64,000 nt of DNA from Geovibrio thiophilus (GTDB lineage: Bacteria > Chrysiogenota > Deferribacteres > Deferribacterales > Geovibrionaceae), in NCBI RefSeq assembly GCF_004087915.1, contig NZ_CP035108.1, positions 1,984,001 through 2,048,000 on the forward strand, read 5' to 3'. Of this stretch, positions 36,673-64,000 are shown piece by piece. A program made the position numbers and the translations under genes. The notes beneath the pieces were generated by a model, which searched no databases, was not told where the DNA came from, and saw nothing but the letters and a program-made list of their open reading frames with translations. Positions within the stretch are counted from its first letter, which is position 1. Each line of letters starts with the position of its first letter.

Positions 36673-36719
36673 AAAAAGCTGAGACTGCCGCGTCGCTTTG
36701 CTCCTCGCAGTGACGTAAC
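36673..36719 (+). repeat. Dispersed repeat, copy 2
   Basis: 47 bases that match the minus strand of 14610-14657 with few mismatches and one gap (CTGAGACTGCCGCGTCGCT, then GCAGTGACGTAAC). It continues into TGTCATTGCGAGCG, a sequence typical of the widespread dispersed repeat whose chance translation reads CEERSDEA. It directly adjoins the tandem array at 36745. Confidence 0.65.
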
Positions 36720-36744
36720 CTGCTGTCATTGCGAGCGTGCGAAG

Positions 36745-38420
<1,676 letters not shown>

Positions 38421-62310: not shown

Positions 62311-62517
62311 TTATTTTGAGAGTACTTTTACCTCGAATGTAGCGGGGAGCTTAGGTACTTCCTCCAAAGCGGGAAATTCCAAAACCCAGCCGTTGTCAAG
62401 TTCAAACACTCCGCCCCATGCCCCTGCCTGCTCAATTTTGATTACGTGCGCTTCAATGTCCTTCTTGGGAACGTAAATATTAATGCCTTTCGGTGTTTCT
62501 CTAACTGTTACTTTCAT
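62311..62517 (-). CDS. nifT: NifT/FixU family protein
   Basis: 68 residues with the NifT layout: MKVTVRETPKGINIYVPKKD at the start, then GGVFELDNGWVLEFP. The small protein is usually encoded just after nifK and before nifE; its function is not established. Here a 400-base repeat array is inserted between nifK and nifT. GGCAGGG lies 7 bases before the ATG. Confidence 0.88.
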   Translation of the reverse strand: MKVTVRETPKGINIYVPKKDIEAHVIKIEQAGAWGGVFELDNGWVLEFPALEEVPKLPATFEVKVLSK

Positions 62518-62542: not shown

Positions 62543-62957
62543 CATCGCCGAACCGGCGTCCTGCGGTTCGGCTGAAACCGCTCGCGCCTTGCAAAGCAAG
62601 CCTCCGCTCCGGCACGGCGCAGTTCCATCCATGGAACCGGATAAAACGAGGGGCGGACTTTTGCCGCCGCCCCGCAGCGGTATATACTTTGTTATTGAAA
62701 CTGTTTGTTATCTGATTACGTCGTAGCTCGTGGTGTACATCGTTTCCCACTTTCCATCGCCGAACCTGCATCCTGCGGTTCGGCTGAAACCGCTCGCGCC
62801 TTGCAAAGCAAGCCTTCGCTCCGGCACGGCGCAGTTCCATCCATGGAACCGGATAAAACGGGGGGCGGACTTTTGCCGCCGCCCCGCAGCGGTATATACT
62901 TTGTTATTGAAACTGTTTGTTATCTGATTACGTCATAGCTCGTGGTGTACATCGTTT
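62543..62957 (-). repeat. 212-bp tandem duplication containing the nifK 3' end
   Basis: Two copies of 203 bases (62543-62745 and 62755-62957), separated by nine bases, with about five to seven differences. Each copy ends on the right with the last 38 bases of nifK including the stop; only the right copy is joined to the real gene. The copied tail has one synonymous change (TAT to TAC, Tyr). Each copy holds a three-hairpin core (62551-62637, 62763-62849): AACC..GGTT, CTTGC/GCAAG and GTTCCAT/ATGGAAC, plus a GC-rich hairpin near 62865-62885. The core has the same linkers as that after eno. Confidence 0.9.
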
Positions 62958-64000
62958 TCCTGTCTGTTTCGTCAAGGATTGTGTTGACGATCCAGTTGAG
63001 GAGGTTCAGACCGCCCATGTACCCTATTGTGGGGTATCTGTGGAGGAACTGTCTGTCAAACATGGGAAAACCGATTCTGATAAGCGGTATGCCCGTATCT
63101 CTCATAAGGTATTTTGCGAAGCTGTTCCCTATGATGAAATCGCAGGGGTCGGTTGCAAGCAGTGAGCGGAAGTGCCACATATCTTTATGAGCGTAAACTT
63201 CGGCCTCGCTGCCCTGAGGGCAAGAAGCAAGCAGCGCTTTAGTGTCTGCTTCCCAGTCCTTTGTACCGTTTGTAAGCAGAACATGCTTGATTTCGCCGCC
63301 GAGTTCCATAACCATGCGTGTAAGACCGAAGGCATAGTCAGGGTCAGCATTCAGAGAGAAGGTCTTGCCGTGTACCCAGTAGTATGAGTCGCCTATGGCA
63401 TCGACAAATCTGCCTCTTTCATTTTCGATTTCAGCAGGAATTTCCTTGCCGGTAAGTTCGGCTATTGCCATCATAAGGTCGTCTGAGCCTTTGATACCGA
63501 AGGGGTTAACCACTTTCACAGGGTGTCCCCATTCTTTCTCAATGAACTCTATTGTTTTAACAGTTGAGTATTTCTGAAGAAGAAGCGTAGCCTTGGAGTT
63601 GGGCGCGTCCTTCAGGTCAGCTATCTTAGTTCCGCCGTTGAACATTTTGTAATGTCCGTCGGTGGGGGAATCAAGGTTGTAGGAAGGATCGCTCAATATT
63701 ATGAAATCCACTCCGAACAGACCGAGAATCCTTTTTATCTCACGGAAGTTGCCTATATAGGTATCGAATCCGAGGATAACGTTGATTCTGTCTTTCACTT
63801 CGCCTGTTTTCTCGCCAACCTGAGCAAGCATGCTTGAGAGCATGTTGTCATAGCCGGTGATATGCGAACCCACGAAGGAAGGGGTGTGCGCATGGGTTAT
63901 AAGCGAGCCTTCGGGAACGTTGCCCTGCTCTTTGGCGTTTTTTACGAAGTTGTTAAGGTCATCCCCGATAACTTCCGCCATACATGAAGTGCATATGGCG
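62920..64000 (-). CDS. nifK: Nitrogenase molybdenum-iron protein beta chain (5' end beyond window)
   Basis: The last 359 or so codons are present; the gene continues past the right edge. At the edge the reading is AICTSCMAEVIGDDLNNF, the NifK block with a P-cluster cysteine, so the frame extends beyond the apparent start at 63981. Other motifs are VGSHITGYDNML, GIPLIRIGFPMFDRQFLHR and PTIGYMGGLNLLNWIVNTIL. NifK pairs with NifD to form the MoFe protein. The gene ends in YTTSYDVIR and its 3' end is duplicated downstream. Confidence 0.95.
   Translation of the reverse strand, partial: AICTSCMAEVIGDDLNNFVKNAKEQGNVPEGSLITHAHTPSFVGSHITGYDNMLSSMLAQVGEKTGEVKDRINVILGFDTYIGNFREIKRILGLFGVDFIILSDPSYNLDSPTDGHYKMFNGGTKIADLKDAPNSKATLLLQKYSTVKTIEFIEKEWGHPVKVVNPFGIKGSDDLMMAIAELTGKEIPAEIENERGRFVDAIGDSYYWVHGKTFSLNADPDYAFGLTRMVMELGGEIKHVLLTNGTKDWEADTKALLASCPQGSEAEVYAHKDMWHFRSLLATDPCDFIIGNSFAKYLMRDTGIPLIRIGFPMFDRQFLHRYPTIGYMGGLNLLNWIVNTILDETDRKTMYTTSYDVIR

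Follow-up and report, generated by a model that had tools for sequence, protein, structure and literature searches.

Tandem arrays of a dispersed palindromic element that include gene tails, at nifK-nifT and elsewhere in Geovibrio thiophilus

What is the repeated segment that separates nifK from nifT in Geovibrio thiophilus, and how did a piece of nifK come to be copied into it? The window analysed here is a stretch of 64,000 nucleotides, in which a sequence-only reading had noticed a tandem copy of the nifK tail together with hairpin-rich DNA and had likened it to an event at eno. We conclude that the nifK-nifT segment is an array of a dispersed palindromic element of the REP/REPIN-like kind, lying antisense behind gene stop codons, and that nifK is not special but one of dozens of such places in the genome.

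The repeat between nifK and nifT

Repeat finding and TRF located a direct repeat between the two genes, at 62543-62748 and 62755-62960, with the period of 212 that had been reported and with copies of 206 bases rather than 203. The copies are identical at 200 of 206 positions (97%, 6 mismatches). nifK ends on the minus strand with its stop at 62920, and nifT occupies 62311-62517. Within each copy, an element of ~105 bases is accompanied by a native terminator-like hairpin and by the final 41 bases of nifK with its stop codon; the 38 bases of nifK that were said to be in both copies are the coding part of these 41. The segment that had been described simply as hairpin-rich therefore has two parts, the dispersed element and the native hairpin, and the order is nifK, hairpin, element, nifK tail, hairpin, element, nifT. 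The features are as follows.

62543-62640 (about), forward strand: element copy A, nearer nifT, placed by repeat and element alignment
62547-62572 (about), forward strand: hairpin 1 of copy A
62580-62586, forward strand: GCTCGCG of copy A
62586-62602 (about), forward strand: hairpin 2 of copy A
62610-62620, forward strand: linker of copy A, CGGCACGGCGC
62620-62639 (about), forward strand: hairpin 3 of copy A
62646-62690 (about), reverse strand: native terminator-like hairpin, copy A, which follows nifK in the genus (from the congener comparison)
62708-62748, reverse strand: extra nifK tail, the last 41 bases with the stop codon
62749-62754: unrepeated filler ACTTTC, linking the extra nifK tail to the 5' boundary of element copy B; a similar filler stands at the same join in G002
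62755-62852 (about), forward strand: element copy B, nearer nifK, with its GCTCGCG at 62792-62798
62858-62902 (about), reverse strand: native terminator-like hairpin, copy B
62920-62960, reverse strand: true nifK 3' end, the source of the duplicated tail

The gene at the array stays intact, since its true tail is retained in the unit nearest to it, and the additional tail is a by-product.

The locus was then compared in two congeners. G001, whose nifK fragment is 87% identical, has no element in the gap: nifK and nifT are separated by 98 bases, which include a terminator-like hairpin. In G002 (fragment 97% identical) the order is nifK, element, second nifK tail, native hairpin, nifT; the element sits between two 39-base nifK tails, and the tail/element junction is the same as here. 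The proposed check of this gap in related genomes thus found duplication and element together in G002 and neither in the single-copy gap of G001. We read the common junction as one ancestral event. The comparison shows that the nifK-nifT gap in the ancestor of this species and G002 already had an element beside an extra nifK tail, through a join of a point inside nifK to the 5' boundary of the element, with neither in G001. Chance is excluded for the nifK repeat, because 44 like arrays were analysed in this genome and the same nifK-tail/element junction is present in G002, an independent assembly. An assembly artefact at nifK was also considered and ruled out: 6 sites distinguish the two copies, and the junction recurs in G002.

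The nif operon had been described as normally tight at this position. This holds for the seven members of other genera of the family whose gap was read, but not for G001, where the gap is 98 bases and has its own hairpin even though it is free of the element. All three congeners have a terminator-like hairpin in the nifK-nifT gap (locus L102 in G001), and here it is doubled; the tight gaps of the other genera were read without one. This hairpin may be an attenuator.

Anatomy, distribution and placement of the element

The element consists of three separate hairpins, variable and covarying, around a fixed and directional core. Read with GCTCGCG forward, it starts with sequence like CTGACTTRATAAT and continues with hairpin 1 (variable stem, apex TCC), TACAC, GCTCGCG, hairpin 2 (variable stem), CTTCGCTTCGCACGGCGCA and hairpin 3 (variable stem, apex TCC). 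RNAalifold gave 24 pairs for the element copies, 18 of them changed on both sides, and the covariation score was greater than in all 500 shuffles. In the stems 94.9% of cells pair, compared with 35.6-45.6% when the partners are slid by 1-3 columns, a control that favours pairing since the structure was derived from closely overlapping data. Among 100 distinct sequences of hairpin 2 there were 567 Watson-Crick, 8 G-T, 11 A-C and 14 other cells. A constraint on RNA of one strand should favour G-U, so the lack of any G-T excess over A-C suggests that pairing is probably maintained as DNA.

Hairpin 2 is wholly different between some orthologous elements of this species and G002 whose flanks agree (L061/L143, L068/L151 and L089/L129), which suggests that elements exchange sequence; the same types of hairpin 2 are found in all three species. 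In some arrays hairpin 1 is a chimera of two elements, again indicating exchange.

Exact copies of the core number 222 in this genome of 3.0 Mb, 42 in G001 and 80 in G002, and 1 in total in nine other genomes of the family; the reversed core pattern was absent from the same genomes. Searching the genome with the nifK unit gave 72 matches and with the eno element 96, many in runs with locus-specific spacing. The sequence examined, which comprised stretches around element matches and orthologous loci rather than the whole genome, held 252 element copies in 100 clusters. A near-identical pattern was found in the GTDB genome collection only in records of Deferribacterales bacterium Deferri_01, in one Denitrovibrio bin and in one Polyangia bin, in a search where records near the source genome may be left out of the collection. 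The viral contigs searched for the core pattern gave no match.

Element copies lie mostly between ORFs, with 3 clusters inside a predicted ORF; for these placement counts ORFs were predicted by length only. The right-hand gene faces the element tail-first in 73 of 95 contexts, so that the element is antisense to it, often within a few bases of its stop codon; clusters between divergent gene starts are few (6 of 95). If the terminus is put at 1.5 Mb, elements favour one orientation relative to replication by 68 to 32, a figure that carries no weight here since it is confounded with gene direction. The strong bias to gene 3' ends, together with the duplication of the native terminator-like hairpin at nifK, would fit an array of functional RNA or terminators, in which selection would keep the element as an mRNA terminus or attenuator and the size of the array would set the expression of nifT-E-N and further genes downstream. 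We nevertheless consider this very unlikely. No Rfam 15 family matched at or above its gathering score in the window, and six array loci gave three weak matches, all far below; the stems have no G-U excess; and selection against harm to promoters and genes would be expected to give such placement too, and may explain part of it.

Array geometry and the origin of the duplications

The 44 arrays analysed are made of locus-specific units with unrepeated filler. In 24 of the 44, the left edge of the unit is the element 5' boundary, 33-56 bases before the core, where 8.4 would be expected if edges fell anywhere in the unit (the maximum of 20,000 simulations was 23). The right edge in those 24 arrays lies between 7 and 165 bases after the core start, and the other breakpoint is often in the tail of the neighbouring gene. 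An edge falls inside the core in 13 arrays, some with a truncated first copy and some with a chimeric hairpin 1. These data show recurrent joins throughout the genome, with a fixed element 5' boundary, a variable point in the 3' flank and few filler bases. The earlier suggestion of a shared mechanism for the nifK and eno tails, as opposed to chance, is borne out by the same process at dozens of loci. Copies within an array are 95-100% alike and those at different loci at most 97%, which suggests that array copies are kept alike or locally renewed and that dispersal would be slower.

Unit number was shown to differ between species. Locus L061 has four units here, an element-free site in G001 and one element between two gene-tail copies in G002, and the junction in the G002 ortholog is at the same gene position as here; L040 has two element-flank units here and a single unit in G002, a draft of about 50 contigs whose arrays have possibly collapsed, so that its unit counts are soft while its junctions are firm.

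The reading that we favour, at about an even chance of being right, is that arrays are built by a template switch provoked by hairpins, together with homologous exchange. Replication or break repair would, to judge from the boundaries, switch template from the flanking gene to the 5' edge of the element. Unequal homologous exchange and gene conversion would then alter copy number and keep copies alike, and dispersal of the element to new loci would be slower than local amplification. We favour this because of the locus-specific arrays throughout the genome with their edges at the 5' boundary, the empty site in G001 and the common junction in G002, the single-unit state of L040 and the same-position junction of L061 in G002. 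It is also favoured by covarying stems without G-T excess, the missing Y1 transposase (below), the greater likeness of copies within arrays than between loci, and the chimeric hairpin 1.

Homologous recombination alone, with element-flank-element duplicated by unequal crossing over and no special join, predicts a hybrid pattern of first, middle and last elements, and this pattern is found in L031, L076 and L089. At nifK, eno and other loci, however, flanks and elements are equal in number, and the final flank copy continues directly into the intact gene, where no further element stands; element-element recombination therefore cannot have made the first duplication at nifK or eno. This explanation is contradicted at nifK and could apply only to a subset of arrays, and as a general account we regard it as quite unlikely.

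The main rival to template switching is a putative element-joining enzyme. True transposition would have such an enzyme recognise the terminal hairpins, possibly on single-stranded DNA, and insert the element at the 3' ends of genes; each insertion would leave direct repeats of differing length (about 15-71 bases), and arrays would grow from these. The single elements bear on this: when their two flanks were compared for direct repeats, 16 of 59 reached a score of at least 16, as did 9 of 600 mismatched pairs. Most left repeats stop at the element 5' boundary, 46-52 bases ahead of the core, and right repeats start 50-104 bases beyond it. In G002 nifK (L101), G002 L143 and G001 L195 the element stands between repeats that have no remnant of an earlier element. 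Such single elements in long direct repeats, without trace of a first element, look like insertion and count against a template switch. Transposition would also account for the dispersal of more than 200 copies, with sites occupied here and empty in G001. Against it, the repeats lack a precise 3' side, elements at different loci are never identical, and the left repeats of L083, L033 and L219 retain a hairpin-3 remnant of a lost first element, as in decayed two-unit arrays. Both kinds may be present, some loci being decayed arrays of two units and others insertions with long target-site duplications. A MITE of a DDE transposase would leave a short target-site duplication of fixed length, and none was seen; the direct repeats, where present, are 15-71 bases and variable.

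Nor did enzyme searches support transposition. The Y1 transposase (PF01797) is absent from the three element-bearing genomes (G000, G001 and G002), while the control search found it in 5 of 14 genomes; a RAYT may have diverged or been lost in them. A search for Y2 transposases gave no match, but with its control silent too it has no bearing on the question. We hold transposition to be possible but doubtful, clearly less probable than the template switch. Less probable again is that miniature elements move and amplify without any known transposase or reverse transcriptase, through a novel process that joins their 5' hairpin edge to points in neighbouring genes and leaves long, variable direct repeats. 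As a further point against the template switch, the constant 5' boundary and the CTGACTT-like start could equally mark an enzyme cut site.

A process resembling retrotransposition, in which the gene tail and antisense element of an mRNA 3' end are reverse transcribed and inserted beside themselves, would explain one fixed and one variable boundary and the 5'-truncated first copies. We find it hardly credible, as RVT_1 (PF00078) gave no candidate in this genome, no match in G002 and one in G001, and the stems carry no G-U signature of RNA structure. The reverse-transcriptase domain of G001 (G001:C3:114810-115451, L156), being absent here and from G002, does not track the element.

Other repeats were seen alongside. 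A second repeat family, GTCATTGCGAACCCTGAAAGGGTGAAGCAATCTC and variants, is often in the array unit beside the element (L031, L042, L058, L070, L075 and L076, and at about 36700-36745 of the window). Two tandem arrays are free of the element: L060:1-879, with a 270-base unit in 3.3 copies (99%) that is a multiple of 3 and possibly coding, and L052:6894-7444, with a 184-base unit in 3 copies (93%).

The eno array gives the relative age of the two events.

36744-37166, forward strand: eno array at the 3' end of eno; 166-base unit, 2.5 copies, 100% alike, first element 5'-truncated

The eno tail/element junction is at CCCTGA(TC) both here and in G001, within 2 bases. In the orthologous arrays (L132 in G001, L133 in G002), hairpin 2 is constant while hairpins 1 and 3 vary from species to species, and both this genome and G001 have a first copy truncated at its 5' end. 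The nifK event had been taken to be the older because its copies have diverged, but G001 has the eno junction and nothing at nifK, which makes the eno event the earlier of the two. How alike the copies are tells of recent homogenisation or altered copy number and not of age. Tandem-copy identity is accordingly no clock: the identical eno copies stem from an older event than the diverged nifK copies.

Relation to known repeats and significance

Tandem clusters of palindromic repeat and flank are already known from the REPINs of Pseudomonas. According to Bertels and Rainey (2011, PMC3116915), Pseudomonas fluorescens SBW25 has 16 REPIN clusters, in which near-identical palindromic elements and their flanks stand in tandem, usually with a short unrepeated stretch between; hairpin changes are compensatory, the largest cluster is over 700 bp, and REPINs, each made of two conserved 16-mers in inverted order, are accompanied by a RAYT (Y1) transposase. 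The element studied here shares the tandem palindromic clusters with flanks, the unrepeated filler and the compensatory hairpin changes. It is likewise short, palindromic, extragenic and present in more than 100 copies (222 with the exact core), with ordered clusters that repeat the flank and have filler between units (44 arrays). It differs in having three separate hairpins with variable stems instead of two inverted REPs forming one hairpin, and in that no RAYT (Y1 tyrosine) transposase was detected in the same genome. Inclusion of gene tails and a one-sided fixed boundary were not found described for REPINs in the passages of PMC3116915 consulted.

The REP families tagged with GTAG or CGTC occur in large clusters in which the repeat and a flank of varying length are reiterated together in tandem, and these REPs are 20-40 bp with a terminal GTAG or CGTC tag (PMC3733652); the main text of that paper has no mention of Denitrovibrio or Deferribacter-type names. 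Large tandem clusters with variable-length flank are common to both, whereas the element here is about 105 bp and has TCC at the apex of two hairpins. The BRE of Bordetella is an interspersed intergenic repeat of about 90 bp that also occurs in tandem, with copy number varying between species and none or few nucleotides between joined copies (PMC3110155). The likeness lies in an interspersed, intergenic, tandem repeat whose copy number varies with species; most units here, in contrast to BRE, carry a locus-specific flank or gene tail.

The MIRU of Mycobacterium tuberculosis are short repeats, dispersed and in tandem near gene ends, with variable copy number. Unlike the arrays described here, MIRU units are not known to carry the tail of the neighbouring gene.

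The distinctive part of the present arrays is the inclusion of gene tails with one fixed boundary, of which no description was found in the literature searched, a body that most subscription journals lay outside. What is new is the element family, without a detectable Y1 transposase or, in this genome, a reverse transcriptase, and its one-sided fixed breakpoint. With 44 arrays in one genome, and empty and single-unit states in two congeners, these loci form a replicated natural data set that bears on how bacterial tandem duplications are set off by short palindromes. In genomes without a detected transposase of the REPIN type, it becomes testable whether host replication and repair alone build such clusters.
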